Shown here: piece by piece, positions 15,370 to 48,744 of the stretch
Numbering within the stretch: position 1 is the stretch's first letter
Layout: each line of letters opens with the position of its first letter
DNA from: Haliclystus octoradiatus
Lineage: Eukaryota > Cnidaria > Staurozoa > Stauromedusae > Haliclystidae
Direction: 5' to 3'
Length of the DNA: 64,000 nt
NCBI GenBank assembly: GCA_916610825.1
Contig: OU744448.1
Coordinates: 23,725,032-23,789,031 of the forward strand
Notes under the pieces: model-generated
Database searches by the model: none
Told to the model about the DNA's origin: nothing
Seen by the model: only the letters and a program-made list of their open reading frames with translations
Translations under genes and position numbers: made by a program

Positions 15370-15717
15370 ATGACATATTATACAAAACTACCGTGTTTTC
15401 TATTTACTTGTATTATTACAATTTATTATCTGATGATTATAGCAGATTGCCAAACATGTGATTGGATGGAAGGAAACCAAACGGTAGTGGATCGTGTTTT
15501 TGATAACCACTCCATCACTACAAATGATGATTTCTCTCTTGTTGTAACAACATCTAATCTCTTTTTATGCAACTATTTATGCAAGAAGAATGCTACTTGT
15601 AATGGTTTGAACTTTTGGAAAAACAAAACTATTCAAAACTGCAACTTAAATTTTGGTTTTAATCTCTTCAACCGGATGACCGACAACATCAATTCAACAA
15701 CAATCTTACGATTTGAG
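15370..15717 (+). CDS. Exon 1: signal peptide and PAN/apple domain
   Basis: The ATG follows AAAA and opens a hydrophobic signal peptide (residues about 8-25, FLFTCIITIYYLMII). The mature part has cysteines at about 27, 30, 67, 71, 77 and 91. The C-x3-C-x5-C-x13-C spacing and the sequence CKKNATCNGLNFW fit a PAN/apple module, a protein- or carbohydrate-binding fold of secreted proteins. Five N-glycosylation sequons are visible (about N36, N46, N74, N85, N108). The exon probably ends at GAG|ATAAGT (15717), phase 0. That is a perfect donor except that +1 is A instead of G. The nearest true GT donor (15721|GTTATA, phase 1) would skip the mini-exon and also keep frame with the TSP1 exon. Confidence 0.7.
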
Positions 15718-16883
15718 ATAAGTTATAGATTTCTTATTTTATCAATGCTAGTGTATTTTGATATGATTTTATGAATTTTATAAAGTAAGATATCTTTAGG
15801 TCTTTACTGAACCTATTACAAGTTTATTATTGGTTTTGATACTATCACATCAGTATATATCTCGTTAGTTAAAACTCCCTAAAGCATGGGGCAAGCGCTC
15901 ATGATTTTTACGCGATTTTGTCAAAAATGGCAAATTTGCTACCGTTAATAGCCAATTTCAAAGCTTTCGGGTACACGTGCACCACCCTGTAAAGGTTCCA
16001 CTCTTTTTAGCCATAGATTGACTAGACAAAATATAAAATACGAAACAAACACGTGACAAATATTTCAAAGCGACGTCTTTTGCATGTTTAAATGTTTGAA
16101 TGGCGGGACTTCCCCTAATTATCATAACAAAGAAAATCTCAAGTTACGCGCCCATTAGTTCTATTTCAGACTCTGTTGCTTATGACAATTAATTGATCGA
16201 ACAGACGTGATGAAACATGAAGCGCGTTGAATCCATCACATGAATTCTGTAAACTAATGTCGAAGGAGACTGACTCTGGGCAAACAAACCATTTTAAATT
16301 ACTAATTTATATTACATTTATTCTGTACAGTACTTATTGTTATTTCTATTCTTGATTTTATTTGAATGTTTTCTAAATTGTTTGTTTACAAAAATGTCTA
16401 TTTTGTTACCCGCCTCAGAACGCCAATTCTTATACCGTTATAAATGGAAACAATTGTTTCTTTTGTCCTCTATTGTTTCATGAATTATTTGTACTCCCTG
16501 TGGTCAATCCACTTGATATCACGATCCGTTTAATATCACGATTCTTGCTTGCACCGCCGTCGTGATATTAACGGGGTTTCACTGTACTTGCTTATGTGGA
16601 TATCTTTTCACTACTTCGGTAGTTTGAGCACTCAGGTATAACACAGATATTTTCTTTCATGTCTTTCGTGTCCAGTGTGTATTTTTCACCACATTGTCTG
16701 ACTTATATTGACTTAGCTGGAGCAGGCGAAGTTATTCCCTAGTTGTTCACGATGCAGTACTGATGACTGCGAATGACCAGAAAAAGTGTTTGTTCTTCTT
16801 CATAAATATTTTACTGGTAATGAATGTTGAAGATACATTGAAATTGCTTATTACTATATCTCAAATCAATACTTTTGTTTCAG
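15718..16883 (+). other. Intron 1 of the PAN-TSP1-FReD gene
   Basis: About 1.2 kb between the PAN exon and the mini-exon, ending in TTTTGTTTCAG. It contains a short motif at 16553-16588 resembling one end of a pogo-like element. No other feature is seen. Confidence 0.5.
16553..16590 (-). repeat. Possible pogo/Tigger-like terminal fragment
   Basis: On the minus strand it reads TACAGTGAAACCCCGTTAAT then ATCACGAC. This resembles the CAGT..AAACC starts of pogo-type elements next to a TA. A related ATATCACGAT phrase lies at 16516-16541, but I found no full partner end or transposase. Confidence 0.3.
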
Positions 16884-16908
16884 GCTGACTGTACAAGTAC
16901 ATCGATTG
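16884..16908 (+). CDS. Exon 2: 25-nt mini-exon
   Basis: Bounded by a strong acceptor (TTTTGTTTCAG) and a strong donor (GTAAGT). In phase 0 it encodes Ala-Asp-Cys-Thr-Ser-Thr-Ser-Ile plus one base. That base G joins AG at the start of the TSP1 exon to make a Glu codon, so the phases match exactly. It requires the previous exon to end in phase 0, which points to the GAG|ATAAGT site with its mutated donor. It adds one cysteine and a short Ser/Thr linker. It could be alternatively spliced. Identification rests on splice sites and phase, not on homology. Confidence 0.5.
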
Positions 16909-19119
16909 GTAAGTTTTTCTTGTTTCACAACATTTACCCCACAAACAAGCTTCCCACTCCGTTCTTTACATGTATCAATTCTATCATGTTCCATCCAAAA
17001 ATAAAAAATGGACATTGCAACTGTGTTTGAAACGCGCTTGGATGGATTTTACTATAGGTTATGCAACCTCATGCATGAAATCCTAGAAGCTATGCTTCGT
17101 CTGATACCAATCAGACAGCTATTCTATATAATCTAAAGAAATTCTCTAAATGTATATGATAGGCAAATATACATAACATCGTATCAACCTATAGTATAGC
17201 AACTCGGTGGTTCCAATGAAAGAAAAAACTGATGACTAGTACTTTGAAAACATTTACTTGTCAATTTTGAATTTATTATCTAGCAATAATATTGCTCCCT
17301 GCTTTGTCGATAATATTTTCTATAATTTACATCAATAATACAAATACGTTACTTTCACAACTTTACAAATCGCAACTATAAAATCTAAAACCATAGTAAA
17401 ATTATGTTAATTATTTTGGTGCTAGCTATTTGACATTTGGAGAATGTGTTTACTCCAATCCGGAGAAGGAAGCAGTTGTATCGGTATGATTATTCAATTG
17501 TTGAATAGGATCTGATTGGTCTGGCCTCTATATATATTTTACATCGTTTATAAAATCAAAACGTTCGTATTAATTTGGGAAAAACTAGCAACTTTATCAA
17601 GCTGTGATTTCAAGTATAGATCTACTTGACAAGTCATTTTCTCCGCCCGAATTGTCAACATTCTATAACAACATATTGCCATTGCGTAGCATCGTGTGAC
17701 AAGAGGTCTCATCTTCTTTTCCTCTCACGCTTTTAGGCATTGTGGAACGACTTCTAGTAAGAAGTTCGTCTAGCCCGTGTGCCGTGAATCTCAGCTTCAT
17801 GTAGCAGAGAATGCGGTAGAATCTCTTGCCTTGCAGTTATTATTCCACTTGACACCTTCTTTTATTTCGTCATAAAAATGTCAAGGCATTACAGTTAATG
17901 AGTAAACATGTGAACAACTGTATTTATAAAGATGAAGTAACATAGATTTTGAATGAAAGGCTGAAGCCTGTGGATACTATTAAAACCATGTTAATTTCCA
18001 CTTATTTCTATGAAATGACTTATTTATTTCGAAAGTAACATATGTTTCGATAAAAAGGAATAAAAGAAATTTGTAAGTTTTACAACAAGTTGTTAAATCA
18101 ACAACTCTCGAGTTGTATTTGAATCTTAGGAATGATTTTGACTTGAAAGTATCTTCACGTAGACAATTCCACAAATACACTATGGGGCTACAAGATTGAA
18201 CTTTTAAGTGCTGTGTGAGCATGAGTAGACTATGTTGGACTGTCAATTTTTATAAATGACTATGCATGCAGTATTTGTTGATACCATATTTACTGTTATC
18301 AATGGAGAACTGTTGTTGATAATGGAGTAAAAAAAAATACTACTATCGTTTGGATGGTGTTACTCCAAATATGGATTAATGCATTTTTCTGCAGTGAAAC
18401 ATTTAATTAGTAAGTCTGATTTTGAACTGTCGTCGACATATTTGTTGCCATTTACATATTCAAGAGTTGGAATCTATAAATTTGAATGTAGCTTGTAATC
18501 TACATAGCAATAAAATCCTGTAAGAGATCCTCTTTCTATTATAGCATCATCTTCTTTAATGCGATCAGATCTTTCTGCTGTGTCGCAATAAAACAAAGTT
18601 TTTTATAGATAATTTTATGCTAAATTATTTGTAATGCGATAAGCAGCTTTCTTCTCTATGGCCAATGGGACTATCTTAGTGATTTAGATGTACGAGTAAC
18701 TGAATGATATTTCAGTACATAATTGTCGACGAATGCGTCCAAAATATAGTACCATTTCATACAATACATCATACACCACCGTGACAGCGCCTTCTTAAAT
18801 CTAACCAGTCGATGCGAATTAGCTCAGTAAATATATCACCATACTCTGCTTTCCTGAATCTATTGTGAACATGGTGAGTTTTATCGCTACACCACTTTTG
18901 GGTACACAGACAACAACATTGATATGGAGTTATGGTTATGTACAATCGCATGTAAAAGCAATGAAAATCAGAAACTCATCATCTGGTCGAAGCTGGAACC
19001 ACATCTAAAATGTTGACACATTGTGAGTAAGACCAGGGGCAGCTTGATTTAGGCTATTTGAAGAGCAGTGGATAGGAAGATATTTGCAGGCATAGATTGA
19101 ACCCTGTAGCTGAAAATTC

Positions 19120-19420
19120 ACTTAACCGCAGGTAAATAGGTCATTATCGCAGCTAATTGACTATTGGCCGCATCTTTCAAAAATCGCAGCAAAGTTCATC
19201 ATTTCCATAGCTAATTCTCTAATAGACGTATCATTGAAAAATCGTAGCTTAATCGTCAATTCGCTGTAGCGAAATAGATCATTTTCACAGCTAATTGTCT
19301 ACTAGACGTACTTTGAAAGATCTCAGCTTAACAGTCTATCCGCTAAGCTAAATAGATCATTTCCGCAGCTTATTCACTAAATGCCGCTTCTTGAAAATAT
19401 AGCAGCTTTAAAGTCATTTA
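19120..19420. repeat. Diverged tandem repeat, about 4 units
   Basis: Phrases of the form AAATAGATCATTTCCGCAGC, TAATTGACTA, and CTTTGAAAAATCGCAGC recur at roughly 70-90 bp spacing. The units are considerably diverged from each other. Confidence 0.6.
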
Positions 19421-20607
19421 TTATCATCTTTTCCCAAAAAAGCAAATGAATTGACGCTTTAAATCTATTCTCTGCTGGCCACGTTGATGGACTACATCGG
19501 TAATAATCTTTCAATCTTTCGCCTGTAACTTTAGAATGGGATTTTGATCATCCTTCTTCTTCGTCAATGAATAACATTGTGTCAGCTTTATTGTTGACAC
19601 ATTCACAGAATTCCCAGCATTTTCCGAATCCCCTTTGCTGCGTTGTTGTTGTATATCAAGTGCATGATCGTCATTATCTTGATAAGAAGCGTAGTCTTTC
19701 ACCGAGAAAGCCATGTTGAATATGAATATGTTTCATGCATACGAGCACGTGTAGTTGAAGGCAATTACACACAACGTTCGTGTTTACATGCATATGCATC
19801 CTTTGTGTGAGAAAAACATTTGATGTTAGATTTCACATGCGTTGTCTCGATTGTTTTAACCCACATCAATAGGCCATTAACCACAAGTGGAATATCATCA
19901 TATTCATATCAAACTAGCATACTTCATTCATCAATATGAAGTGATCAGCTGAGTGCAAGATACTTTCTGAAAACTAATTGTCCACGCTTAAAAGTATGTA
20001 TCCGTATCAAAGACTGGGTATTATCATTTAGAGAAGAAACTCAATAACAGCGTCGGATCTTTCGATTTTATTGAAATTAGTATGTATATAGTTGGTTTTT
20101 AATTTACATTTATATTAATGTTCCTGTAGTTGAGAAGCAATTGTAACATTATCCTTTTAAATATAAACATTTTGTCACATTTTCAAATTAATTTTAAAGA
20201 ATAAAAACAGAAAAAAAGAATGCATAGTAAAAATTCAGATTAAACCTATACTAAAGCAATAAGGTTTCCCTTGGAGCTTTATCGTGAATAAATCAATCAG
20301 CTGCAAACACGGGGTTGAAAATATAAGGTATACCACCCAGAGCTTTGAAGACGTTATGGCACCGAAGAACGTTGTGTTATAATGTGATACAATTCATCTG
20401 CTTGCCATATAATCAAGCCGATATAATTGAATGCCAGCCTGAAACTGATCAATTTCGTGTAAAGGGGGTGTAATGGCTGTGAAGAGCAACATTTGAGATG
20501 TGTATAATTCAACACTTCCTATAAAGTGTTTGAAAAGTTGTTAATTACCTAAAGGTTTTTTGGCAAATATAACCTGAATTGTAATTATAAAAGTTTCTTC
20601 GAAAAAC

Positions 20608-21837: not shown

Positions 21838-22119
21838 AACCTGAATTCAAGACAGAAATCATAATAGTAGAATCTTTAAAAATAAATAAATATTCTAGCT
21901 TGAAATTTTACTATAACATTTGAATAAAATATTCTCGTCAGTCGTTATCAAGAGAAGAGACATCTTTCACAGCATTGAATTTAATGCCAGACAATAAATT
22001 CAAAATATTATTTCTTGCATCGAAATAAAAGACTATGAATAGACCACCACAATGTTATAAGTGTCAATTGTTTCCAGTATCTTAATACAATATCAAATGA
22101 AAGGCTGACATTTGATAAC

Positions 22120-22650
22120 CTTTCACAACCAAAGGACTTTTTATTTCGCCAACATTCGCAGCATTTTGTTGAATTCAAATTGGTGAACTAAAAAGCAATT
22201 TGGCCACTCCCACTTTTTAGGATATTTCTGGCTACATGTTGAAAGTCACTAATTTGTATTTTGGAGACGTTCAAACTTAATTTTGACAACTTTGGCAGGA
22301 TTTTATTGAATTATATTGTTCTACACAAATCCTATCGATGTTGGCGAAGTTGCGGAACGAATTTTTATTTTCGCTAAAATCAGTAAACATTCTAAAAATT
22401 ATGAACTTTCTTCTGATTGGTGAACTACGAAGTAACTCGACTCAGGATTCGCGGGCACGATTGACTAGTCACCATCCCTCAAAATATCACCACTGTTGAT
22501 GAAAATAAATTCGATAAAATCTTATCAATGTTTGCGAGATAAAAAGTCATTTGGTCACCCCAAGATGTTGGCTACAAACGGCAACATCCGTAGGATTAAA
22601 TCCTATCAATGATGGCGAAATGAAAAGTTGTTTGGCCTGGTCTTAAAGTT
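22120..22650. repeat. Diverged repeat tract
   Basis: Phrases like TATCAATGTTGGCGAAAT, AAAAAGTCATTTGGCC and AAATTCGATAAAATC return several times at irregular spacing of about 100-200 bp. This suggests an old, degenerate tandem array. Confidence 0.4.
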
Positions 22651-24779: not shown

Positions 24780-24949
24780 AGAACGGAGGCTGGTCAGAAT
24801 GGGAAGACAAAGTGGTTTGTCCTGATCCTTGCACTAATTTGGAATTAATGGAAATCAGACGATGTGACAATCCTTCTCCAAGATGCAATGGAAATCCTTG
24901 TGTTGGAATAAAAGAACGGAAAAGACAATGCAAGCCAAATGAAGTCATG
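24780..24949 (+). CDS. Exon 3: thrombospondin type 1 repeat
   Basis: The exon follows AAATCAG and ends before GTCAGT. It encodes a complete TSP1 module: NGGWSEWEDKVVC (a WxxW C-mannosylation-type motif), then six cysteines in the expected order (VVC, DPC, RRC, PRC, NPC, RQC). TSP1 modules mediate protein or glycosaminoglycan binding in extracellular proteins. It enters in phase 1, receiving the single base left by the mini-exon (or by the alternative exon-1 donor at 15721). It leaves in phase 0 after KPNEVM if the donor is right. The next visible exon starts inside a fibrinogen domain. Confidence 0.8.
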
Positions 24950-25377: not shown

Positions 25378-26079
<702 letters not shown>

Positions 26080-26428: not shown

Positions 26429-26433
26429 GTAGT
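26429..26433. repeat. Target-site duplication GTAGT, left
   Basis: The five bases directly left of the LTR. The same GTAGT directly follows the other LTR at 29922-29926. Confidence 0.9.
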
Positions 26434-26599
26434 TGTCGTATGACAATGATTAAAGATATTCATGAGTCAATGAGTACAACGCGAGATCCAACATAATCTA
26501 ATCTTATTAATAAAGAACATCTACTTTTATAGTCTACATCAAAACGAGGTTAATATAAAGAGGTTATATATACAGGAATAACAATTACGTAATACGACA
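26434..26599 (-). repeat. 3' LTR (element orientation)
   Basis: 166 bp, TG...CA ends with a 7-bp inverted terminus TGTCGTA/TACGACA. By eye it is identical to 29756-29921. It includes an AATAAAG phrase that could serve in RNA processing on the plus strand; its function is unknown. Confidence 0.95.
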
Positions 26600-26600
26600 A

Positions 26601-26610
26601 CTTCCCTTTA
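26601..26610 (-). other. Polypurine tract of the LTR element
   Basis: On the minus strand AAAGGGAAG lies one or two bases before the 3' LTR start. This is the usual place for plus-strand priming. Confidence 0.7.
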
Positions 26611-26688
26611 TCTAAATTAAAGCAAATATTGTTATTACTGATGTTGTCTTTTTACCACATTAATTAATTAATTAATCTATTTTATTTA

Positions 26689-29600
26689 TTAACTATAACC
26701 AAAACGATTTGGTTGACGAACAATTCTTGATGAACGCCGTATTGACATATGTGGTGAAGATATGTTTGAATCAGCTGGTTGAACTGCTGATGATGATGTT
26801 GTATCGGGTGTGGGGCTAGTCCTACTTGTTTGTTCTAAATTGCAGTCTACAGGGGCATTGCCAATTTGATTGTTCGAAGCTAATACTGTTCTCTCCCCCA
26901 ATTTTAACCACGCTGTGTTTGATCCTTTTGCAACAACAAATGCAGCTTTCCGAGAGGGTGTGGAATTTGTTGGCTTATACATTACGATGTCTCCTGGTAC
27001 ATGATCGGAAACAAAAGGGACTCTGAGATTTCTCCCCATTAAAATTTGTGCAGGTGATTCTCCGCGAGCATTCGAAGTAGTTCTGTGTACCAGCAAAATC
27101 TTGTTTAGAAACATATCGAAAGAAACGCGCATATTGCGATGCCAAGCTTTCATAGCACGCTTCACTGTTTGGACCGACCGCTCTGCAAGGCCGTTAGCGC
27201 GAGGGAAATAGGCGGGTGATTCAGATTTGTAGCAACCAGATTTGGCTAGCCATGAAACAATAGCGTCATTGACGAATTCTTGCGCATTATCGGAAACTAA
27301 GTGTTTTGCGACACCGAAACGGGCAAAAAGTGATGAAAATATTCGAATAATATTTGGAGTGGATCGGTCTGGACATCGGAAAGCTTCAATCCAGCCGCTA
27401 CCAGCATCAACAATCATTAAAACATTTCCGATATCTGGAACATGGCCAAAATCCATATGTAATCTTTCCCAAGGGTCAGCTTTTGGCCATTCATGTACTG
27501 ATTTAGCAGTCTTAGGGCGCAAAGTACAGCACTGTTCACAAGAAGATACATAGCGGTCTATGTCACGAGCCATGCCTGGCCACCAAGCACTCTTTGAGAG
27601 AAAGCGCTGGGTTGCATTTATACCTTGGTGGGTAGAATGTGCTTTTTCGAGAATTGAACGGCGGAGCGATGCAGGAATAAAAGCAATAGAACCGAAATAG
27701 ATAACGTCGTTATGTATAGTTAAATTTTGGTTCAAACGCGCAAACGGACGCTCAGCTTCACTGGGATTGGCCCAATTGCCCGAAATAATACGCCCTTTTA
27801 GAGATTGTGCGATGACATCAAGATGAGTAGCATTTTTTAAATCGGAAAAAGCAATAACTGGCTGAAGAAAAGCCTCGTCACAGCTACGTGTGACTTCGAC
27901 AGCAGCAACAATGTCTTCGCGGGAAAGGGTGGAAGACACTGAAAGGCGAGATAATGCATCAGCATGACAAATTTCAGTTCCGGGCCTGTGTTGAATATTA
28001 AAATCAAACGCCATTAAATTTATGGCCCACCGACTGATTCGTGCCGAAGCAGTTTTTGGAATTGGTTGATCAGCACCAAATAATTGGATCAAAGCCTTAT
28101 GATCCGTGATAAGTGTGAAATGACGACCTAAGAGCAGTTGACGCAGCCTTTCTACGCACCAAACAATACCAAGACCTTCCCTTTCAGTTGCAGAGTATTT
28201 TTTTTCAGCTGGAGTAAGGGATTTTGAAATAAAAATAACAGGTTGGCCATCCTGTGTGAGGACACCAGCAATACAATGGTCTGATGCGTCAGTGGTCAAT
28301 GTCGCTTCTTTTAGCAACGAATATGGTTGAACAATTGGTTTACTTGAAAGTTCAGATTTGAGATTTTCAAACGAACGAGCACAATCATTATTCCATTCAA
28401 AAGCGGTTTCTTTTTTGCGTAATAAATTTAGCGGTTTTATTTTGTCTGCAAAGTTTGGTATGAAACGCCCAAAAAAATTCACCAAACCAACAAATGACTC
28501 AATTTCTTTTTTATTTTGAGGAGGACGCATGCTGTTAATTTTATTGACAAGGCGATCATCTGGTTGAATACCAGAAGCTGATATGCGATAGCCCAAAAAC
28601 GAAACTTCAGAAACACGCTGCGTGGATTTTTCCATATTAATAGAAAGCCGCCGGGATTTAAACCGTTCCATTACAGCGTTCAAACGTTTGTTTAAAGATT
28701 CTTCAGTAGTGGCATAAATAAGGACATCATCCTGATAAGCAATTGTGCCCTTTAAACCTTGCAGGACATCTTCAATTACATGTTGAAAAATAGCCGAACT
28801 GTTGCGCATGCCCATTTGTAAGCGGGTTACGCTATAAAGGCCTTTACTAGTGTTGATAATAGATAATTTTCGCGCGTTGGCTACATCGTTGACATCGTCA
28901 TTGGCGTCACTGTCATGGTCCACTGCTACATGATTTACCTTCGCGGTGTCTTTCTTCTTTTTATAACAGCACTGTTCAAGGTGCCCACGTTTGTTGCAAT
29001 AACTGCATCTTTTGTTGAAAGCCGGACAAGCACGCGGAGGGTGTGTCCCATCACAGAATTTGCATTTATGACTGTTTGAAGCTTTGTTGGTTGAGCTTTT
29101 AACATAATTAACGACCACTTTTCCTTCATTAGGTAATGTCGTTCGTTGTAGAAATGTCTGCGTCATATCGTAGAGGCGGACACGTTCTCTTAAATCCTCA
29201 AAAGTAGCCGTTGGCATTAGTCGTATATAATCCAGCAACTCTCTGGTGATTTTGACATCGTTGAAGCAGTTTATAAAAACCAATTTCTTTAACTCTTCTG
29301 ATGGGTCCAATGTTTCTTTGAACCGTGAAAAGTCGCATCTTTCACTTTGATAATTGATTCTAGTGTAGACATCTTCTACTGACTCATCTGGCAATTGTCG
29401 TATTGCTAAAAATGTAGTGCGTTCAGCAATCAAAAAACGCTCTTTTGGCTCTATGTATTTACAAGCGATAGCATAAATGTCAGCAAATGGCATTTGTTCA
29501 AGCTTCTTTGGTGTAACCAATCTTGACAATGTGATATATGATGTCTCTCCACACATTTCTATGAACATATCAGTTTGCTCTAAATACCCGTCTTTGGAAA

Positions 29601-29706
29601 GATCACCATCTTCAAGATGATCGCGACGGCATTTAGCATTAAACGAAGCAAACCAAGCGTTTGCTTTCTCGACATCATCTAAGACTAAAATTCTTTTTCG
29701 GTCCAT
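26689..29706 (-). CDS. Gag-Pol fusion, protease and N-terminal RT missing
   Basis: 1005 residues from an ATG 50 bp inside the 5' LTR. Residues 1-200 are gag-like. Two zinc knuckles follow (CKFCDGTH..C and CSYCNKRGH..CC, about 215-250). At about 275-285 the sequence jumps into the middle of reverse transcriptase (GLYSVTRLQMGMRNSSAIFQ, then YQDDVLIY). The aspartic protease DTG/DSG motif and the RT motifs before this, with the first catalytic Asp, are absent. RNase H (TTDASDH, TDHKAL), integrase HHCC (HSTHQG...CEQCC) and the DD35E core (MDFGH, SDNAQEF, NGLAERS) follow intact. Complete relatives are usually several hundred residues longer. The deletion is in frame, so a fusion protein could still be made. 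Confidence 0.9.
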   Translation of the reverse strand: MDRKRILVLDDVEKANAWFASFNAKCRRDHLEDGDLSKDGYLEQTDMFIEMCGETSYITLSRLVTPKKLEQMPFADIYAIACKYIEPKERFLIAERTTFLAIRQLPDESVEDVYTRINYQSERCDFSRFKETLDPSEELKKLVFINCFNDVKITRELLDYIRLMPTATFEDLRERVRLYDMTQTFLQRTTLPNEGKVVVNYVKSSTNKASNSHKCKFCDGTHPPRACPAFNKRCSYCNKRGHLEQCCYKKKKDTAKVNHVAVDHDSDANDDVNDVANARKLSIINTSKGLYSVTRLQMGMRNSSAIFQHVIEDVLQGLKGTIAYQDDVLIYATTEESLNKRLNAVMERFKSRRLSINMEKSTQRVSEVSFLGYRISASGIQPDDRLVNKINSMRPPQNKKEIESFVGLVNFFGRFIPNFADKIKPLNLLRKKETAFEWNNDCARSFENLKSELSSKPIVQPYSLLKEATLTTDASDHCIAGVLTQDGQPVIFISKSLTPAEKKYSATEREGLGIVWCVERLRQLLLGRHFTLITDHKALIQLFGADQPIPKTASARISRWAINLMAFDFNIQHRPGTEICHADALSRLSVSSTLSREDIVAAVEVTRSCDEAFLQPVIAFSDLKNATHLDVIAQSLKGRIISGNWANPSEAERPFARLNQNLTIHNDVIYFGSIAFIPASLRRSILEKAHSTHQGINATQRFLSKSAWWPGMARDIDRYVSSCEQCCTLRPKTAKSVHEWPKADPWERLHMDFGHVPDIGNVLMIVDAGSGWIEAFRCPDRSTPNIIRIFSSLFARFGVAKHLVSDNAQEFVNDAIVSWLAKSGCYKSESPAYFPRANGLAERSVQTVKRAMKAWHRNMRVSFDMFLNKILLVHRTTSNARGESPAQILMGRNLRVPFVSDHVPGDIVMYKPTNSTPSRKAAFVVAKGSNTAWLKLGERTVLASNNQIGNAPVDCNLEQTSRTSPTPDTTSSSAVQPADSNISSPHMSIRRSSRIVRQPNRFGYS

Positions 29707-29735
29707 CGCAATGTCAGCGAAGATTCTTTGTACTT

Positions 29736-29752
29736 TATAACTCGCAGCGCCA
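29736..29752 (-). other. Candidate primer-binding site
   Basis: On the minus strand, three bases after the 5' LTR, the sequence TGGCGCTGCGAG starts with the TGG expected from a tRNA 3' CCA. I cannot name the tRNA. Confidence 0.6.
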
Positions 29753-29755
29753 ATT

Positions 29756-29921
29756 TGTCGTATGACAATGATTAAAGATATTCATGAGTCAATGAGTACA
29801 ACGCGAGATCCAACATAATCTAATCTTATTAATAAAGAACATCTACTTTTATAGTCTACATCAAAACGAGGTTAATATAAAGAGGTTATATATACAGGAA
29901 TAACAATTACGTAATACGACA
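29756..29921 (-). repeat. 5' LTR (element orientation)
   Basis: 166 bp, by eye identical to the other LTR. It is followed on the right by the target duplication GTAGT (29922-29926). Confidence 0.95.
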
Positions 29922-31043: not shown

Positions 31044-33052
31044 GTATTATGGGAACATTGGAGCATGGTCAACCACTTGACGAATTCTTTTATTTTAATC
31101 AAAACTCTTAACTTTAGATTAGTAGGACTTTTTGTTTATTGTTTTCTATAACTAGATTTAATATTTAATAACTTTTAGTTTGAAATATGTATATACATAT
31201 AGACATTTGTAATTTACTTTATAAGTTTTAAAAATTTGAAATATATCTGTTTGATTAGATATGCAGTAATTTCAAAAGGAAAATCGCTTGTGAGGAGGTA
31301 TCAACAAGGATAAAAGTGCAGGGAAATGTAATATCATTTTTGAAGTTGCATGTTATTAGATGGAAAAAGTTGAATTTGATGAAACATTCAGGAGTAATGG
31401 ATCATAAAAAGACATTGTGGATCATAGTTATTGTTTTTCAAGTCACATTTTCAGAGAGCATGGCGTATTTCAATCAAGTTGTAATCATGCAAGGGATCGA
31501 AGAAATCAGAAATATTTTACGAAAGCATGTATTTATGGCTGCATGTACTGTTGAGATGTTTGTTGTTCCTTTGAAAATTGATCGATGCCGTCAATTTGAA
31601 TGTTTTTCACTCTCTGCCACTGACTCCATTTACGTGAAATAATTTGAAATAAAACCAGAGATCGAGAGACAGATAATCGTTGTAACAGAGTAAAAAATTT
31701 CACATCTATTTTTTCAAATAAACAGTTTATTCAGTTTAATATTTCTATTCCAAAAAAATTTCCATCTGCTATTCTCAATGTAAAAGGTTTTATCAAATTA
31801 TCTAATTCATATATTAAACTAAAGAATAATTCTATTATTTCAAATATTCTAAAACCCTTTGGAAATGTCATTACGAGATATCTATTGAAAGATTGTTCGA
31901 ATTGAGAATATTATACTGGTTTTCAATTCAATTATGTGAAATCTTAAGTAGAACACACAATAATTGAATAAAATATTTACGTGGTTTAATTTGATTTCCT
32001 AATTGAATATTTCTTTCACCTTAACTTGATTGACCTAAATTCAGTTCTTCCTTACGATTTTCTTATTTCAGATATTGTGGATCTCTACTCCCTTGGTGTT
32101 GGGGTACATTACATCAACATCAACTCATTACGTGTTTCAATGAAGAAAAGAACGGATTCTCGCAATAACTATAGTCAGTAATAGTGAGATATTTTGGATA
32201 TCATAGTGTCTCACGTTTTGAAACAAAATGGAAATGCGAATTTTTTTTCCACAATAGAGTTTGACCTTCACGTTCTGAGGACATTTATATTTATATTTAT
32301 ATCTTTTTACTTTGTTCCATTAAATACTTATAACTGTTCATTCGTATCCTGCTATTTATTTTCATTATTGTATTATTTATTCCACAAAGTACTATATACC
32401 TTCAATGCTGTAACTTCTTATTTCTAACACTTCTCTTGTGAAGTTCTTTAGTCGCTAGCACGTAATTAATACATCAGCAGGATTACCGTGTTGCTACACA
32501 ATGCTGCTTGGGGCTTCAATTTTTTAACTCCACAAACCTAAGTTTAAGTTTTAAATTTCAAATCTATTTTGTGTCACATTCATCCTTGCGTATCAACACG
32601 ATAACGTGATAAGAATGTGCTGTCCGCAGATAAATGTAAAACGGGAAAAGTTCCAACTTTGAAGGCATAAATCTCTTTTCGGAATATGCGATACAATGGC
32701 TAACTTAGCTGACTTAGTTAATTAACGTTGCCAACTTAACTAACGTAACTTAAGATATGGATTCAATTGTCTGAGCAAGAGCTTGAACCAGAACTCAGCA
32801 TTGACAATCATAATTAATTAATCATTTAACACAATTAATCATAATCCAACATCCTTTGATATGCCGTGATTTGATATATGGATCCAACTCAATGACCTAA
32901 TCAGAAAGAGAGCAACTATTGAAAGAGGAGTATGATTTAGAATAATCTGCATAATAGTTACAGATTAGCTTTAAATTACATTTTCATTGCCAAGTCTAAT
33001 TCACATTATTGACAATGAGTCAATGATCCCATTGAATTTTTGTTTTTCGTAG
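31044..33052 (+). other. Intronic sequence, nothing recognised
   Basis: The open frame at 31316-31642 has no domain or acceptable splice-bounded structure. I searched for the missing N-terminal fibrinogen exon (CDM...GGW) and did not find it. Confidence 0.4.
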
Positions 33053-33322
33053 AGTTTATTCCAATACAAAATCGAGAAACTGGTGAAACATCATTTAATC
33101 GAAGCTGGGAAGAGTATAAATACGGATTCGGGGATCTCTCTAGTGACTTCTGGATTGGAAATGAAAACATTCATCAATTAACAGCATTGTTAACTTTTCA
33201 ATTTGCAAGAATTGACGGATGGAATGAGAACGAACGTGCAATGGTTTTTTACAATGGATTTCACGTTACTGATGAAAACGATGACTACCAGCTGGAGGCA
33301 TTCTTCAGATTACGAGGTTCAG
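33053..33322 (+). CDS. Exon 4: fibrinogen C-terminal domain, middle part
   Basis: Bounded by TTTTTCGTAG and TCAG|GTATTT. It encodes the central part of a fibrinogen-related domain: IQNRETGETSFNRSWEEYKY, then GFGDLSSDFWIGNENIHQLT, then a strand-rich stretch to DDYQLEAFFRLRGS. In ficolins, techylectins and tenascins this domain binds acetylated sugars or protein ligands outside the cell. Entry is in phase 1 (an ?AG codon), or in phase 0 if the acceptor is two bases further on. Exit is in phase 1 and fits exon 5 exactly. The expected N-terminal portion up to GGW is not in this exon. Confidence 0.85.
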
Positions 33323-38091: not shown

Positions 38092-38729
38092 TTACTGTTC
38101 ATTGACTTCAGTCGATGTGCCACTCACAGAAGAAGGCTCTGAAGCTAGTTGCTAGTTTATTGGCTCTGTTACGCAATATATGTACTCTATAAGCATATTT
38201 ACCAGAAAATTTTTTATATTTTATATGTAACATAATGCATATATATCAGAAATGTAAGTTTGACAGTTGATAAATCCAAAGCTTTGCTCATTCGCTTCCT
38301 GCTTCCAAGTTAAAATAAAGCTAAATGCTGAGTTAAAACACATATATTATCTAAATGTTTCTGAGGAAGATTCTCGATAGAATAATAATTTATAATTGAC
38401 AAAATCATACTTATCCGTTTTGCAAGGCGTCATTGCAAATTTAGAAGCACAGTTCGATTGGAGTCGCGGCACTCGTTTGGTCGTTAATACTCACTAGGTT
38501 CTTCAATTTATCATTATTTTGAATATAACCATATTTAAGATATAATTTATTATTGCTCAATGACTGATTTGGTAATAATATCGAAATATATCACATCTTG
38601 AACAAATGGTGTTAAAGAATTGATGTAAACTTATCAACTTATCTTTTGCTTCAATATCCTCATCAACGATCAACGATCAGCGATGTAAACAATCGATAGG
38701 TAAGCACAGATATTTTGAATTTGCTAGAG

Positions 38730-39770
38730 ATGGGAAAGAAACGGGCCAAACAGAGTACCAGTGACAATGAAGGCTTAGAATGTAAATGCAATGATAAACT
38801 GAAGGAATCGATCAATGAAATGAGGGAAGAAATATCTGAATTAAAAGAAATTATTTCTAAATTTATCGACCGGGAAAAGTTGCCATGTCAACCAAATTCT
38901 TGGTCACAGGTAGTGGCTACAGCCCCTAACAATGCATTAATTGTCAATAGAACAATTAATGGAACAACAAAAAACTGCACAAAGCTTCTTTCAGATGAAC
39001 CTTCTGAAAAAATAATAGAAAAACTAAAGAAAAGTAAAATTAATGTTAAAGGATCAATAATTACAACAAAAGGGAAAACAACCTCGATCGAAGTGCCGAA
39101 TGAAAAGCTAGCCAGTATAAAATCATCCTTAAGTAAAGGTAAAATTACCTACAAAGAAATAAAAAAAAGGGACCCAGTCGCAATTATTCCAAATGTTCCG
39201 AAATGGATGACATCTAAAGCTATCCATGATTCACTGCTTGCTGACAATCCAGACATTTTTGAGAGTCAAAATGACATTATTAATTTATATCTGTTTCCAA
39301 CAAAAGAGAATGCTCTTGATCAAAGAGTATCCTTACGACTAGCATCCAAAGCATTCTCTAAGCTTGCCGAGAACAACATGTGGCTAAGACTTGATTCAAT
39401 ACTAAATGTATGCGCCTATCCAGATCTGAAGCCGATCCGATGTTTTCATTGTGGCCGTCTTGGTCACAGTACAAAGAATTGTGAAATGATTGACGAAGAG
39501 TCAATTTGCTTTGATTGTGGTGATCAACATCCACTAGACAGGAAAAAGAAATGCAGCAGGAAAGAAAGAAAATGTGCCGCATGCTGCAAATCGAAGGCAT
39601 TCCAATGCAAAGCAACATCGCATCACACCTTCGATGGCAGTTGCCCACTACTACTCTTACACATAAAACGCAACATCGGAAATACAACTTTCACAAGCGC
39701 CACTTATGGAATCATCGAAAAACAACTTCAGCATATGACCCAAACAAAATACCGCAATGCCCATCAATAA
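38730..39770 (+). CDS. Retrotransposon ORF1: gag-like RNA-binding protein
   Basis: About 346 residues from the ATG at 38730 (an upstream TTG adds five codons). The N-terminal ~50 residues are charged and helical. The C-terminal third has zinc knuckles: CFHCGRLGHSTKNC is a classical C-x2-C-x4-H-x4-C, and further CFDCGDQH and CAACC clusters follow. This is the ORF1 type of Jockey/I-like elements, which binds element RNA and helps form the ribonucleoprotein. Its stop TAA overlaps the ATG of ORF2 by 14 nt, suggesting coupled translation of the two proteins. It is intact. Confidence 0.85.
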   Translation: MGKKRAKQSTSDNEGLECKCNDKLKESINEMREEISELKEIISKFIDREKLPCQPNSWSQVVATAPNNALIVNRTINGTTKNCTKLLSDEPSEKIIEKLKKSKINVKGSIITTKGKTTSIEVPNEKLASIKSSLSKGKITYKEIKKRDPVAIIPNVPKWMTSKAIHDSLLADNPDIFESQNDIINLYLFPTKENALDQRVSLRLASKAFSKLAENNMWLRLDSILNVCAYPDLKPIRCFHCGRLGHSTKNCEMIDEESICFDCGDQHPLDRKKKCSRKERKCAACCKSKAFQCKATSHHTFDGSCPLLLLHIKRNIGNTTFTSATYGIIEKQLQHMTQTKYRNAHQ

Positions 39771-42700
39771 TCAACAATTCCGAATATCAACTGGATTATT
39801 TAACTCATCCATCCGTAAATATCAAGTAACTACGACTAACACGAAAACAAAACTTTATAAAATATTGAAGCATATCGTATTATCCACCATAAACAATTTG
39901 TATGTCACAATAACTACATCATTCACTACTGTACTCAAATGTTTTTCACAGATCAACCAATACTTTATAACACTTATCTATCTAATAATGCTCTGCTGTG
40001 GTGATATACATCCCAACCCTGGACCAATTCATAATATTAACATCGTCAGCTGGAACTGCAACAGTCTAAGGGGGAAGCAGCACGAAATCGACCACCTCAC
40101 TAATAAATTATCACCGAATATCATTGCCCTATGTGAAACCAAATTAAACACTAATATCAGCAATAAGCAAATAGACTTAGATGGATTCACTCTACATAGG
40201 AAAGACCGTCCCAACAGCACTGCTGGAGGTGGACTTGTATTCTACATCAACGACAACATCGCTTGCAGAAGAAAACCTCAATGGGAAAATAACGAAATTG
40301 AGATGATGGCATTCGATATTAAATTTGGCTTAAAAAAGGTGTCAATAATATTAACATACCGGCCACCAAATTTTGCACTGAAAAAGTATTTTGACTGTCT
40401 GAATAGTATTATGGAAACATTACTTAGATCAAGATCTGAGGTAGTATTGCTAGGTGATTTGAATTGCGATATTAGCAAAAAAGTGAATAACACTCCTGGA
40501 CAATCCCTTCAAGAATTTATTGATAACTACGCTCTCATCAATCTGATCAATGGACCAACCAGACCATCATCAGGGACATCACTTGATGTCATACTCGTAT
40601 CGCATCCAAGACACTTTGTTGCTAGTAACATCATCGCAACTGGAGCTTCCGACCACAGTATCTGCATGACAACATACAAAACTAAATGCCTACGCACACA
40701 GCCAAGATTAATAACTTACAGAAAAACGAAAAATACAAACTTTACTTCACTCAATAATGATCTCTGTGGGATACAATGGGAACGTATGTACACTAATGAT
40801 AACGGTGAGCTACTGTCAGCCGATGATGTATGGAACAGATGGTTCTTTGAAGTTAACTCAGTCATAGAGAAACATTCACCATTGACATCTAAACTTATCA
40901 AGGCACAAAGACCACCATGGATTACAGCTAAAATCGACGAAGCTATCAGACTCAGAGATCACTTATCGAAGTTACCACGAAATGAAGAAAATATCCGCCG
41001 CTTCCACACTCAACGGAATCTAGTCACAAAACTTAAACGACACAGCCTCCAACAATATCTCGAAACATCTTCAAAGACTGAACCCTCAAAATTTCACTGT
41101 AACCTACAAAAAATCACTGGTATTGGGAAAAACAAATCTGCTAATGTAGCTAATTTATTGGAAAACAACTGCTTAATAACCTCCGCTAAAGAAAAAGCAC
41201 AAATAATAGGAAGATATTTTAAAAATTGTATACCACCTACTCCAAACTGGACTGCCGACTATCTCAAAAATCACCCAAGCATACATCAAATCATGAATCG
41301 CTCCTGCACTTCCTTCTGTTTTAAATACACATCAGACAATGAAGTAAATAACATTATCAAAAGATTCAGAACTAAAAAGGCAACTGGGGCCGATAACATA
41401 TCCGTAAGCTTCCTCAAAACTATCCTACCTAGCCTCACCTCTCCTATTACCGATCTATTCAATCACTTAATAACAATAAATGAAATACCAAAAGCCTGGA
41501 AACATGGCATAGTCTCACCAATATACAAAAAAAACGATCCATCAAATAAAGAAAATTATCGACCAATTACCATCCTCACTCATATCTCCAAAGCATTCGA
41601 GAAAATCTTAGCAAATCAACTCCAAAATCACTTTAAACCAATTTTCCCACCTGATATGTTTGGATTTGTACATAGTCACTGTGCTGAAATGGCCCTCATG
41701 AAACTCACACAAGATTGTAGAACAGCCATCAACAAAAAACAAACTACTGCAATCGTCTCCCTCGATCTCTCCAAGGCATTTGATATGGTACACCATAAAC
41801 TTCTGATGGAAAAATTGAGAGCTTACGGTGTAAATCCATCAAGTTGTAACTTAATCAACAATTACCTAAGTGGAAGAACACAATCTATCAGAGTTGAAAG
41901 TCAGACTTCCTCGCCCTTCTCCTGCCCTCGGGGAGTCCCACAAGGATCGATAATATCACCACTACTATTTAATATCTACGTAGCAGACTTTTCATTTCTT
42001 CCAATAACCTCTTCCATCATACGATACGCAGATGATACAACGCTATACTATTCCTCCAACCACAAAAACACTGCTGTCCAACACCTCAACAAAGACTTGG
42101 AAAAGGTGCACCAATGGTTCCAGCTGAATTGTCTAAAACTGAACCCCTCAAAAACTCAATGCCTACTAATCACTCACATTCCAGAGCCCGACATTCACGT
42201 TACGAGCGCAAATCTTCTAAGTACTAATCAAATACATAACAAAGACATTACAATCGATGATGTAACCTTACCTTGGCTCAATATAATAAAGATACTCGGT
42301 ACTCACATTGACAGTAGATTAAACATGAGATGTCATCTTCGCAATTGCATCAGAAAAGCCAATCTCTCCCTATACCAAATCAAACAGGTTAAAAAATCCC
42401 TAAACCCACACCTTGCCAATACACTTTACAAGACATACATCCGTCCTCACCTAGAACATTGTAGCCTACTTCTTCTTGGAATTAATCAAACGGATAGACT
42501 AAAATTAGAAAGAATTCAAGAAAAATCACTAAAACACCTAACACGACCCAATACTGGTAAAGAATATCGTCTTCCATCTCTACACGTCAGAAGAATAGTA
42601 AAATTAACCAATTTGATCCACAAAACACTCATAACAGAAACTCCAAAACTTTTACACTCCCTCTTCAAGATATCCAACAGTAAATATACGTCATCTTGCC

Positions 42701-42903
42701 GTCCAAACAAACTCATCCCACCCATTTGCAGAACAACCCTGATGAAATGGTCGATTGTAGCAGTAGGTACTAGAGTTTGGAACTTTATCCCGGAAGTAAT
42801 ACGTGGGGAAGCAATAAGAACATTCAAAGAGTCAACTCTTGCGTATTTGACATCCCTGGAATGGAAAATAAATTATTGGTTTATGTCAATCAGCTGTCGA
42901 TAG
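39757..42903 (+). CDS. Retrotransposon ORF2: endonuclease and reverse transcriptase
   Basis: 1048 residues. The first ~90 contain a hydrophobic stretch (about 70-80) and a 2A-like motif ending at Pro-90. The APE-type endonuclease follows (about 94-310: IVSWNCNSLRG, ALCETKL, GDLNCD, ASDHSICM). The reverse transcriptase lies at about 545-800: KKATGADNIS, NYRPITILTH, SLDLSKAFD, GVPQGSIISPLLF and the catalytic YADD. A C-terminal region without RNase H extends to the stop. The protein nicks target DNA and primes cDNA synthesis on it. The frame is fully open. The truncated sister differs by about five residues over the last ~390. Confidence 0.92.
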   Translation: MPINNQQFRISTGLFNSSIRKYQVTTTNTKTKLYKILKHIVLSTINNLYVTITTSFTTVLKCFSQINQYFITLIYLIMLCCGDIHPNPGPIHNINIVSWNCNSLRGKQHEIDHLTNKLSPNIIALCETKLNTNISNKQIDLDGFTLHRKDRPNSTAGGGLVFYINDNIACRRKPQWENNEIEMMAFDIKFGLKKVSIILTYRPPNFALKKYFDCLNSIMETLLRSRSEVVLLGDLNCDISKKVNNTPGQSLQEFIDNYALINLINGPTRPSSGTSLDVILVSHPRHFVASNIIATGASDHSICMTTYKTKCLRTQPRLITYRKTKNTNFTSLNNDLCGIQWERMYTNDNGELLSADDVWNRWFFEVNSVIEKHSPLTSKLIKAQRPPWITAKIDEAIRLRDHLSKLPRNEENIRRFHTQRNLVTKLKRHSLQQYLETSSKTEPSKFHCNLQKITGIGKNKSANVANLLENNCLITSAKEKAQIIGRYFKNCIPPTPNWTADYLKNHPSIHQIMNRSCTSFCFKYTSDNEVNNIIKRFRTKKATGADNISVSFLKTILPSLTSPITDLFNHLITINEIPKAWKHGIVSPIYKKNDPSNKENYRPITILTHISKAFEKILANQLQNHFKPIFPPDMFGFVHSHCAEMALMKLTQDCRTAINKKQTTAIVSLDLSKAFDMVHHKLLMEKLRAYGVNPSSCNLINNYLSGRTQSIRVESQTSSPFSCPRGVPQGSIISPLLFNIYVADFSFLPITSSIIRYADDTTLYYSSNHKNTAVQHLNKDLEKVHQWFQLNCLKLNPSKTQCLLITHIPEPDIHVTSANLLSTNQIHNKDITIDDVTLPWLNIIKILGTHIDSRLNMRCHLRNCIRKANLSLYQIKQVKKSLNPHLANTLYKTYIRPHLEHCSLLLLGINQTDRLKLERIQEKSLKHLTRPNTGKEYRLPSLHVRRIVKLTNLIHKTLITETPKLLHSLFKISNSKYTSSCRPNKLIPPICRTTLMKWSIVAVGTRVWNFIPEVIRGEAIRTFKESTLAYLTSLEWKINYWFMSISCR
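39997..40026 (+). other. 2A-like ribosome-skipping motif in ORF2
   Basis: Residues 81-90 read CGDIHPNPGP, directly after the hydrophobic FITLIYLIMLC. Canonical 2A peptides end D-(V/I)-E-x-N-P-G-P and make the ribosome skip the Gly-Pro bond. Here NPGP and the Asp-Ile are kept and Glu is replaced by His. It sits just before the endonuclease, where 2A-like sequences are known in other non-LTR elements. Skipping would release a short leader and an endonuclease-RT protein starting with Pro. Activity of the His variant is unproven. Confidence 0.7.
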
Positions 42904-43220
42904 TTAGATTATAATGTTATATCTATCAAAAACACTAGCATTTTCCTCATAAATATAATACAATTAGCATAATTATGGAACTTGTCTCGTTCAAAAAATG
43001 AAAAAAATAAAAATAAAAATAAAAAAAATAAAAAAAATAATAAAATAATAAAATAATAATAAAAATTATATTATATTATTAATACTATTATTCTTGTCAT
43101 TATTTCTACTAATTTACAATATTATAATTAATAACTTACTTTTAAATTCGTATCAATGTATAAACGAGCATTTGCTCATTTTGGTTACGAATCGAAATAA
43201 AATTATACACACACACACAC

Positions 43221-46700: not shown

Positions 46701-46911
46701 ATATATTAAATTGGATTTATAAAGCATTGAAATCTATTTGTTTTTGTGATTGCTTTCCTAGTAAGTCAGAATATCCACAGTAGGTGCGCCAATGTAGGAA
46801 ACTTTCTTAACAAATGTCGGAAACGTGACACAAAACTATGAGAAATTTCAAAAAAAGATCAGTCCCTTTTCCCAGACACCCCCCTAAGATTAATTTCAAA
46901 TTGCGCCCCTG
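43736..46911 (+). mobile_element. hAT DNA transposon with intact ends and dead transposase
   Basis: This 3176-bp element has perfect 13-bp terminal inverted repeats (CAGGGGCGCAATT at the left, its reverse complement at the right). It is bounded by a perfect 8-bp target duplication (CTGATAGG). The CAGGG start and the 8-bp duplication are hallmarks of hAT elements. C-runs (TACCCCCCC left, ACACCCCCC right) lie just inside the ends. The transposase is broken by stops and frameshifts, so the copy could move only with an enzyme supplied in trans. Confidence 0.95.
44400..46487 (+). pseudogene. hAT transposase with TTF-type finger, disrupted
   Basis: Blocks run in order with intervening stops and shifts. 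A TTF/ZMYM-type zinc finger region comes first (from about 44500: EYSIAKDAAYCFCCQLFPIG, SSHFASENHK). Next is a LLGRLLAFRGSS block (about 44850-44895), then the catalytic domain (45110-45619: MTDTTPDTSHRDQLSAVVRY, FPCLAHHINT, SGTRWV). Last is the C-terminal dimerisation region (46263-46487: SAPNERAFSKLNLVMTLLRS, GLMSLATERD). The layout matches ZMYM1-like/DUF4371 hAT proteins. Stops lie near 44803, 44999, 45077 and 45617, and frame changes follow. It is non-functional. Confidence 0.85.
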
Positions 46912-46919
46912 CTGATAGG
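46912..46919. repeat. hAT target-site duplication CTGATAGG, right
   Basis: Exact copy of 43728-43735. Confidence 0.95.
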
Positions 46920-46954
46920 ATTATTGCTGTGGGTATTCTCTGTGCGCTTTCTTT

Positions 46955-47188
46955 GTAATTGTAATTGTAATTGTAATATCACGTGCCCCCTTTGCCATAC
47001 TATGGCAAGCACATCATCAACTGAGTGCAAGGCGAATTTACTTTTTTTTGTTGTTGTTGTTGTCTCATTATTTATTGTTTATACATTGTTAAGTTTATTT
47101 AATACCATAGAAAAGCCATAGAAGTGCATCTTGTAATTGTAATTGTAAAAACTATGGAGGAAAAACCATAGAAAAGACATTAAATAAT
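46955..47188 (+). repeat. TTGTAA repeats and CCATAGAAAAG repeats before an endonuclease fragment
   Basis: (TTGTAA)n runs at 46955-46978 and 47131-47148, with CCATAGAAAAG at about 47105 and 47166. They could be the 5' leader of the retroelement that starts coding at 47189. (TTGTAA)-type repeats also form 3' tails of some non-LTR elements, so this may be the junction of two copies. Confidence 0.45.
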
Positions 47189-47545
47189 ATGAAAGTATAT
47201 TATGTAAATACAAGAGGACTAAAGTCTAAATCACAAAGTCTGATAGAGATAATAGAAGATACCAATGCCGATGTTGTCGCAGTAATAGAAACTCACACAG
47301 GAGCAAACGACATAATTGCAATAGAAGGGTGCCGAATATTTAGAAACGACAGAAATACAGAAGGAGGGGGGGTGTTAATAGCAGTTAAAAATAAATACAA
47401 AAATACAACAATGGAAGTCACCAGATCTAATAACGACATGGAAAGTTTGTGGATTAAAATTGGAACCATCACAACATATAAAATAGGAGTAACATACTTT
47501 CCAAAGGGAGACATGATAAAGAAGGCAGCTATCAAGGTCATGTAT
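47189..47545 (+). pseudogene. N-terminal APE endonuclease fragment of another non-LTR element
   Basis: From ATG: MKVYYVNTRGLKSKSQSLIE, then DVVAVIETHTGA, FRNDRNTEGGGVLIAV and MESLWIKIG. These are the first half of an APE-type endonuclease with its Asn and Glu active-site residues. Homology stops near GDMIKKAAIK. The following codons stay in frame but belong to something else, so the fragment ends at a recombination or insertion join. It is a different family from both complete elements in the window. Confidence 0.75.
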
Positions 47546-47925
47546 GAAGTACCTCAACTTCGTGATTTTTTACGAAAAAGTGGTCTTTAAAGTTGGTGAT
47601 ACAAAAGAAGAACTTGTTGCTTTGTCGTTTGGAGCTGTTCAGTTTGAAGTGAAAAATGTGCCAGATGCCGATGAAAAGGACTGACTGAAAAAGGCCCAAT
47701 ATAACTCTCTCTTGTTAGTGGAGGGAGAAAAGCTTCCAGATCCTTTAAACGAAATTGGCGAAATGTTTTGGGTTGGCGAGAAGGAGGGTGTTAGTCGCTG
47801 GCCTTTTATTTCATTTGCGAATATTGAGACCTTTATTCTATCATCTGAACAGCTAGTATCAGCTTCACTGATCAAAGGAATGCTTAGTGATTATAAATAA
47901 GGGAAGTCATTTAGCTATTTCGATC
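47546..47925 (+). pseudogene. SAP-like fragment of an unassigned transposon-associated protein
   Basis: Begins in the endonuclease frame with VPQLRDFLRKSGL, then shifts and continues KVGDTKEELVALSFGAVQFE. Further pieces are KLPDPLNEIG, WVGEKEGVSRWPFISF and, after a stop, GKSFSYF. A short helix-loop-helix of SAP type followed by a G-W-x-x-E-K-x-x-x-x-W-P block recalls N-terminal parts of large YqaJ/SWIM-type proteins that are common in invertebrate genomes. I hold that only as a recollection. At least one frameshift and two stops are present. Confidence 0.4.
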
Positions 47926-48484
47926 CAAAAAAAAATCGATCATCGATCCAAAAGAAATTCAATGGCGTTTGAGAATATTAATAAGGGAAGTAGCGTATCC
48001 AATTTGGAGAGATTTCGCCATTGAGGCACACACATAGGTCGAAGAAATATATCAAAATGATAGGAATGTAATATAAAGTATTTTAATTTACAAGATATGT
48101 AGAATGACTATAGTCACTGGCATGCAATGCACATTCTGCATTTAATCACAATCAATCACATTGCATATCCAAACATGCTTTATATGTATGTCGGAGGTTA
48201 TTTGTTCAAATTTGATAGGAAGTTGGCTAATCAGTGTGACAGCTATACACTGATAGCGGTTTCGTAATTTGCATCTAGTATTAGTGCTAACTCTAGTTTA
48301 GCAACAACTGCATGTAATCACTGACTTCGTTTCCAAGATATAGTTGGCGTTTGTCACTGAAAAATTTACGAGTAGAAGCTCAATTTATGAGCTCATCAAT
48401 CCAACATTTGAAGTAATTTCGTTTTTCAAGTGTATAACCTTAGCATAATCAATAAATAGGTTATGATTTCATTTTTTGTTATAG

Positions 48485-48744
48485 CTACCATGGGTGATTC
48501 GTTGGCATCAAACATGAAGTTCTCAACCTATGACCGTGACAATGATAATGAGCAGGATGGAAATTGTGCATTGCATTATTCAGGTGGATGGTGGTTTGAT
48601 GATTGTGGAAAATCGAATCTTAACGGGTTATGGCCAGGCACAGATACCTATAATGGCCAATGAATTATTTGGGAAACGTATAATGGCAGAACATCTTTTA
48701 CTTCCTCATATATTGAATTGAAATTGCTAGCAGTGCAGCCTTAA
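48485..48744 (+). pseudogene. Exon 5: fibrinogen C-terminal end, with premature TGA
   Basis: Starts after TTTTGTTATAG. The base G from exon 4 plus CT gives Ala, then [20 protein letters not shown], the AGDSL...FST-x-DxDND calcium-site region of fibrinogen domains. [21 protein letters not shown] follows with the paired cysteines. At 48661-48663 an in-frame TGA sits where the family has Gly in GIxW. The same frame then continues IIWETYNGRTS...SYIELKL to the expected end and a TAA at 48742-48744. A single GGA-to-TGA change would explain it. If translated as is, the protein loses its last ~27 residues. A possible poly(A) signal (ATTAAA) is at about 48757. Confidence 0.85.

Follow-up and report, generated by a model that had tools for sequence, protein, structure and literature searches.

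The genome of Haliclystus octoradiatus contains, in a stretch of 64,000 nucleotides (contig OU744448.1, positions 23,725,032 to 23,789,031 of the forward strand; hereafter the window), a series of exons spread over window positions 15370-48744, which raises the question of whether they form one working gene. An initial annotation had read them as five plus-strand exons of a secreted lectin-like protein combining a PAN domain, a thrombospondin type 1 repeat (TSP1) and a fibrinogen-related domain (FReD). Comparison with relatives in the same genome suggests that 15370-48744 is quite probably a dispersed copy, inactivated not long ago, of a gene with six exons, the intact relatives of which would encode a secreted protein of 380-390 amino acids composed of signal peptide, PAN, TSP1 and FReD. 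The exons, their order and their membership of a single gene were borne out, but a sixth exon (32072-32173) had been missed and the copy is not intact. The architecture is genuine and the initial annotation joined its parts correctly, but this particular copy is most likely dead; a domain order that looks attractive in raw sequence may come from a defunct copy.

The genome searched comprises 261.9 Mb in 33 contigs, among which the window corresponds to C4:23725032-23789031. Three relatives, copies A, B and C, lie in tandem on the minus strand of contig C10 (13.733-13.875 Mb) with the order PAN, TSP1, exon 4 and exon 5. Identities of the matches on this contig were 81, 43, 42 and 38% for exon 1 (81% at the amino acid level being copy C), 91, 85 and 83% for the TSP1 exon, 76, 65 and 65% for exon 4, and 82, 81 and 79% for exon 5. 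The six exons, their order, the mini-exon and the intron phases are common to the window and copies A, B and C (4/4), with the exceptions that the end of the window TSP1 exon is shifted by one base and that exon 4 of copy C is interrupted. After combining overlapping loci, copy A splices into an open frame of 382 amino acids in which 5/5 introns are GT-AG, including the GT after exon 1, with a mini-exon reading GECTNTSV and a TSP1 exon of 171 nucleotides ending in phase 1. Copy B, taking locus L013 as exon 1, yields an open frame of 391 amino acids, also with 5/5 GT-AG introns, and contains a mini-exon reading GQCTNTSV, a TSP1 exon of 171 nucleotides, the FReD-start exon and exons 4 and 5. Copy C retains all six exons, with a TSP1 exon of 171 nucleotides, and in its exon 4 the sequence passes into a terminal repeat of a Ty3/gypsy element. 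Copies A and B therefore look intact, whereas copy C is disrupted and the window copy has three lesions of its own. The open spliced frames of two relatives back the proposal that PAN, mini-exon, TSP1 and FReD would belong to one secreted protein. Two exon 1 candidates exist for copy B, L013 and L014 (C10:13834559 and 13842200), both open PAN exons located upstream of its single TSP1-FReD set; the extra one could be an orphan exon, an alternative first exon or the remains of a partly lost fourth tandem copy.

The exons of the window copy are listed in Table 1. By eye, the leader encoded by exon 1 is followed by a PAN-type cysteine pattern. The 25-nucleotide mini-exon proved to be real: of the open, correctly phased segments of 9-60 nucleotides that lie between exon 1 and TSP1, it was the sole one with splice scores that good (the score tables are approximate), such a segment was expected by chance at a mean of 0.017 in 60 dinucleotide shuffles, and all three relatives (3/3; copies A, B and C) keep it, flanked by canonical splice sites. 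Its cysteine is presumably the last one of the PAN domain, judging by the PAN motif; the PAN_1 profile match grew no longer when the mini-exon was added. Both joins that had been deduced from phase hold, namely G + AG giving Glu after the mini-exon and G + CT giving Ala after exon 4, the latter from either of two donors that share one phase, 33323 (score 5.2) and 33317 (score 1.0, which matches the donor of copy A).

The window copy carries three lesions. A canonical junction is absent after exon 1, as intron 1 starts with AT (15718..15719, GAG/ATAAGT) where copies A, B and C have GT; the nine bases GAGATAAGT at this junction deviate from a donor only in the first base of the intron. The TSP1 exon has 170 nucleotides in the window versus 171 in A, B and C, with a base missing near its end, which shifts the frame and removes the last TSP1 cysteine; in the six-cysteine TSP1 check this cysteine was gone in the window and retained in A, B and C, and the window exon ends in phase 0 whereas exon 4 begins in phase 1. 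Finally, the frame described as open to 48744 reads through an in-frame TGA at 48661-48663 of the last exon, a place past which the frame runs on in copies A, B and C, so that the C-terminus of the FReD is incomplete in the window and complete in copies A and B. Since the three lesions are missing from 3/3 close relatives, the window copy is most likely a pseudogene and not a working pattern-recognition gene, and would make at most a truncated product; retention of intron 1 would end the frame 18 codons further on and give a PAN-only protein of 134 amino acids. Both the missed exon and the one-base deletion are revealed only through relatives in the same genome.

Several points weigh against this interpretation. 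Assembly or allelic differences could account for the lesions. Apart from them the frame of the window copy is open throughout its exons, as would be expected of a living gene, and a weak in-phase GT at 15751 means that the donor lesion alone need not be fatal; pairwise ratios of nonsynonymous to synonymous substitution (dN/dS) cannot isolate the window branch; and, with regard to the domains, PAN and TSP1 of the window both score under their Pfam cut-offs, and Pfam is blind to the start of the FReD even in the intact copy A (where the match begins at position 40 of 221), which makes the fold of the head a presumed one. Of the alternatives, the one that survives best, unlikely as we consider it, is that of a living gene that normally makes the full PAN-TSP1-FReD protein, the lesions stemming from errors of assembly or from a null allele. 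It draws on the otherwise open exons, on a dN/dS of about 0.2, as under selection, and on the GT at 15751, which could replace the lost donor, being in the right phase and adding 11 codons, albeit with a score of −0.2 (8.3 for the mini-exon donor); the phase of the nearest GT (15722) places, by eye, a stop right after the mini-exon join. What speaks against a living gene is that three changes of three kinds (donor, one-base deletion and nonsense) fall within about 1.2 kb of exons and that none of them occurs in any of the three relatives.

The dN/dS values were obtained by a home-made Nei-Gojobori count in which the exons differ between pairs and stretches past indels were left out. They were 0.18 for window-A (217 codons, exon 1 left out), 0.23 for window-C (253 codons, exon 4 left out), 0.18 for window-B and 0.24 for A-B (191 codons each, from TSP1 and exons 4 and 5 only), with single-exon values for the window copy ranging from 0.07 to 0.35. 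As dN/dS of the window is not raised, constraint was probably lost recently, and the decay of the window copy is probably recent too. Homology between the window and copy C extends past exon 1 (13912-15793, 74%) and around the mini-exon (16723-17906, 71%), and this homology beyond the exons indicates that the copy arose by DNA duplication and not by retroposition. The window copy would have originated from a DNA-level duplication including introns and upstream flank, evolved under purifying selection until recently and then decayed. A second, very unlikely alternative is that a shorter gene remains in use, which retains intron 1 and makes the PAN-only protein of 134 amino acids as a secreted product. 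Exon 1, with its start and leader, is indeed open into intron 1 up to 15774, but the mini-exon, TSP1 and FReD exons are still similar to those of the relatives, which leaves little time for a new role.

The weakest part of the initial annotation by its own account was the link between TSP1 and FReD, and it is here that the sixth exon was found. Alignment of the TSP1-exon 4 intron of the window with that of copy A gave one conserved block, 78% identical over 87 nucleotides, which corresponds to an exon at 32072-32173 with phase 1 on both sides; copies B and C have counterparts of it. The window version, DIVDLYSLGVGVHYININSLRVSMKK, occupies the position of the FReD start without CDM or GGGW. The CDM...GGGW signature, a motif present in PDB chains, is absent from this exon in every one of the four copies (4/4), and the lack of CDM and GGGW is probably why Pfam misses the exon. 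A small, home-made and unfiltered profile of the CDM...GGGW subdomain yielded nothing convincing across both strands of the whole window (at best 8.3 bits, E value 0.46). Pfam found no FReD start in three-frame translations between TSP1 and exon 4 (24950-33052), in the plus-strand stretches 15720-24784, 33319-38600 and 44000-48484, or on both strands of 54160-64000, the matches in 44000-48484 being limited to transposons and one that was sub-threshold; these whole-frame scans covered the stretches named, and the rest of the window was covered as single open reading frames. The idea that the FReD-start exon had been lost was dropped, as the comparison with copy A shows it to be present and unrecognisable to the profile. 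Copy A is compact in this region, with 504 nucleotides from TSP1 to the FReD-start exon and 1771 more to exon 4. Since the FReD-start exon joins TSP1 to FReD in phase 1, the doubted link is right, and copies A and B splice with the same exons, phases and order into open frames. That two neighbouring genes, PAN-TSP1 and FReD, were wrongly joined is barely credible: Pfam's failure to find a FReD start in 24950-33052 would agree with it, but the exon exists and is in phase 1 at either end, copy A shows this order in compact form, and copy B passes from TSP1 to FReD in frame.

Table 1. Exons of the window gene and retrotransposons lying among them (window coordinates).
Feature	Position	Strand	Basis or remarks
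Exon 1: start codon, hydrophobic leader, PAN-like domain	15370..15717	+	Open frame; ends in phase 0
Mini-exon, 25 nucleotides, phase 0 to 1: ADCTSTSI and first base of Glu	16884..16908	+	Splice scores and relatives
TSP1 exon, 170 nucleotides	24780..24949	+	PDB match to thrombospondin-1
Diverged N-terminal FReD exon (DIVDLYSLGVGVHYININSLRVSMKK...), phase 1 to 1	32072..32173	+	Comparison with copy A
FReD exon 4, Pfam positions 46-124	33053..33322; alternative end 33316, same phase	+	Fibrinogen_C, 70.3 bits
FReD exon 5, last exon	48485..48744; TGA at 48661-48663	+	Fibrinogen_C, 49.5 bits up to stop
Ty3/gypsy element, TSP1-FReD region, no part of the gene	26433..29921	-	Two identical 167-nucleotide terminal repeats; 5-base target duplication GTAGT (by eye)
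Long interspersed nuclear element (LINE) retrotransposon, intron between FReD exons 4 and 5	38700..43220	+	Open reading frames; 1.49-kb piece repeated in inverted orientation at 867-2333, 97% self-match

The three domains differ in how they are supported by profiles. PAN_1 scored 15.0-17.4 bits on window exon 1, below the Pfam cut-off of 21.4; among four related proteins, two were above the cut-off (L013 with 22.7 and L017, on contig C6, with 26.8) and two below (copy A with 16.8 and copy C with 18.7). We take PAN to be established for the family through these relatives, and not for the window copy alone. A single-sequence AlphaFold model of exon 1 reached a mean predicted local distance difference test score (pLDDT) of 31.8, too low to be informative. 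TSP_1 scored 14.2 bits on the window (cut-off 21.6), while the window TSP1 matched PDB thrombospondin-1 with an E value of 6e-14 for the whole sequence and of 9e-7 and 4e-7 for the best single repeats. Fibrinogen_C, with a cut-off of 22, gave 128.1 bits on exons 4 and 5 of the window with an X at the stop (positions 46-209 of 221). A Pfam scan of the spliced copy A protein, a kind of check that had been suggested for the gene product, recovered the FReD (131.5 bits), but PAN_1 stayed under its cut-off and TSP_1 was not listed at E values up to 1.

The order of domains was then counted over the genome, using 93 PAN matches, the best 150 of 833 TSP1 candidates and the best 150 of 225 exon 4 matches. 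Behind seven PAN matches at six loci came a TSP1 match (within 60 kb) and then a FReD match (within 30 kb), all on one strand; when the PAN matches were shifted at random 300 times, this order turned up a mean of 0.41 times and at most 4 times. Pairs of TSP1 and FReD within 10 kb numbered 19/150 for the best 150 of 833 TSP1 candidates, compared with a mean of 0.52 and at most 7 under shifting. The FReD list also held five extra entries (four further FReD matches, one of them a near-duplicate, and one stray PAN coordinate), which by inspection neither of these two results used but which were present in the shifts; a count of PAN-FReD pairs (18/93) did use two of them and is disregarded. Two of the six loci lie on contig C6 and the other four are the window gene and copies A, B and C; with six loci in the same domain order, the window gene is no singleton. 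Fibrinogen_C itself had at least 155 matches genome-wide, many of them clustered on contigs C2, C4, C5, C10 and C11; most of the matches listed begin near profile position 42 and end at 131-137, while a further group covers roughly 137-219. Judged by these matches, the FReD family in this genome is very large. Scans of viral contigs (with exon 4 and TSP1) and of prokaryote genomes (with exon 5) returned one match of 13 residues (L001) and nothing else.

In many animals FReD proteins serve in recognition, with N-terminal modules that set assembly and attachment targets. The intact protein would be exported; its PAN and TSP1 modules may bind proteins or glycans, and its FReD head may recognise a surface ligand in defence or adhesion. 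The word lectin used in the initial annotation is a guess, a secreted recognition or adhesion protein being the safer inference. The best six PDB chains for the FReD head were angiopoietin-1 and tenascin-R (E values 4e-29 to 4e-28), with ficolins from 3e-26. The window FReD lacks the CDM...GGGW start, unlike angiopoietin-1, tenascin-R and ficolins, and reads CG where tenascin-R shows CH in the PDB alignments, a position that belongs to the acetyl-binding pocket of ficolins. The N-terminal modules of angiopoietin-1, tenascin-R and ficolins differ from PAN-TSP1, and no collagen-like stalk of the ficolin type was found in the spliced copy A protein (E values up to 1).

No description of a PAN, TSP1 and FReD combination was found in the literature, an absence that is weakly supported, with most subscription papers, supplements and animal protein databases outside the search. 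PAN/Apple domains together with a FReD have been reported in molluscs, namely in Biomphalaria glabrata, Lottia gigantea and Crassostrea gigas being mentioned as well (PMC7588048); like the window family, these proteins carry PAN/Apple and FReD in one chain. That of B. glabrata also carries an immunoglobulin superfamily (IgSF) domain, whereas the IgSF domain of mollusc fibrinogen-related proteins (FREPs) had no match in copy A (E values up to 1), and the terms thrombospondin and TSP have 0 occurrences in the main text of PMC7588048. Cnidarian thrombospondin repeat (TSR) proteins and expanded FREPs likewise form large TSP1 or FReD repertoires in non-bilaterians (PMC5446238, PMC12549020), the FREP family being vastly expanded in Nematostella (PMC12549020). 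The PAN-TSP1-FReD combination was not found in the accessible parts of these two papers, and fibrinogen has 0 occurrences in the main text of PMC5446238.

Whether PAN-TSP1-FReD represents an undescribed secreted recognition family in a non-bilaterian appears to us evenly balanced. Such a family would have a head without the first disulphide and the GGGW core, its first cysteine coming from the TSP1 end, and would evolve by birth and death, as suggested by the tandem copies, the decaying dispersed copy and the sister broken by Ty3/gypsy. A degenerate FReD borne on a PAN-TSP1 stalk, encoded by two copies that are open and have the A-B dN/dS given above, would be a candidate design.

Mobile elements and repeats accompany the window gene (Table 1). 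The Ty3/gypsy element is short (3.5 kb), with one minus-strand frame of 1030 amino acids, and its identical terminal repeats point to a recent insertion. That of copy C (L053, C10:13744674-13746407) is 99.5% identical to it over 1305 internal nucleotides; near-identical elements in the window gene and in exon 4 of copy C indicate that this element has been active of late, and it breaks a family member. The first frame of the LINE carries a CCHC knuckle (a sub-threshold Pfam match), and its long second frame has near its start CGDIHPNPGP, presumably a 2A ribosome-skipping motif. A second, different LINE-like pair of frames (485 and 959 amino acids) lies at 49617-54144, about 1 kb past the last FReD exon. 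Pieces of a hAT-type transposase, with a sub-threshold match to DUF4371 and a match to Dimer_Tnp_hAT, occur in the last intron (44453-46487).

Rfam and tRNA scans gave 0 matches. Minus-strand frames of up to 366 amino acids at 6763-11493, three of them without a Pfam match, possibly belong to a broken transposon or gene. Elsewhere in the genome, mitochondrial COX1 (L066, C33:3135-4475) contains, from the first Met, nine in-frame TGA codons, with TGA as Trp, and four AGR codons at places where Arg is expected. This is in line with genetic code 4 and with a non-bilaterian source, perhaps a cnidarian by its COX1 protein; a mollusc, considered at first in view of the PAN-FReD proteins of that group, was discarded on these grounds. 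The window also contains a perfect (AAT)233 microsatellite of 700 bases at 25379-26078, with 100% matches.

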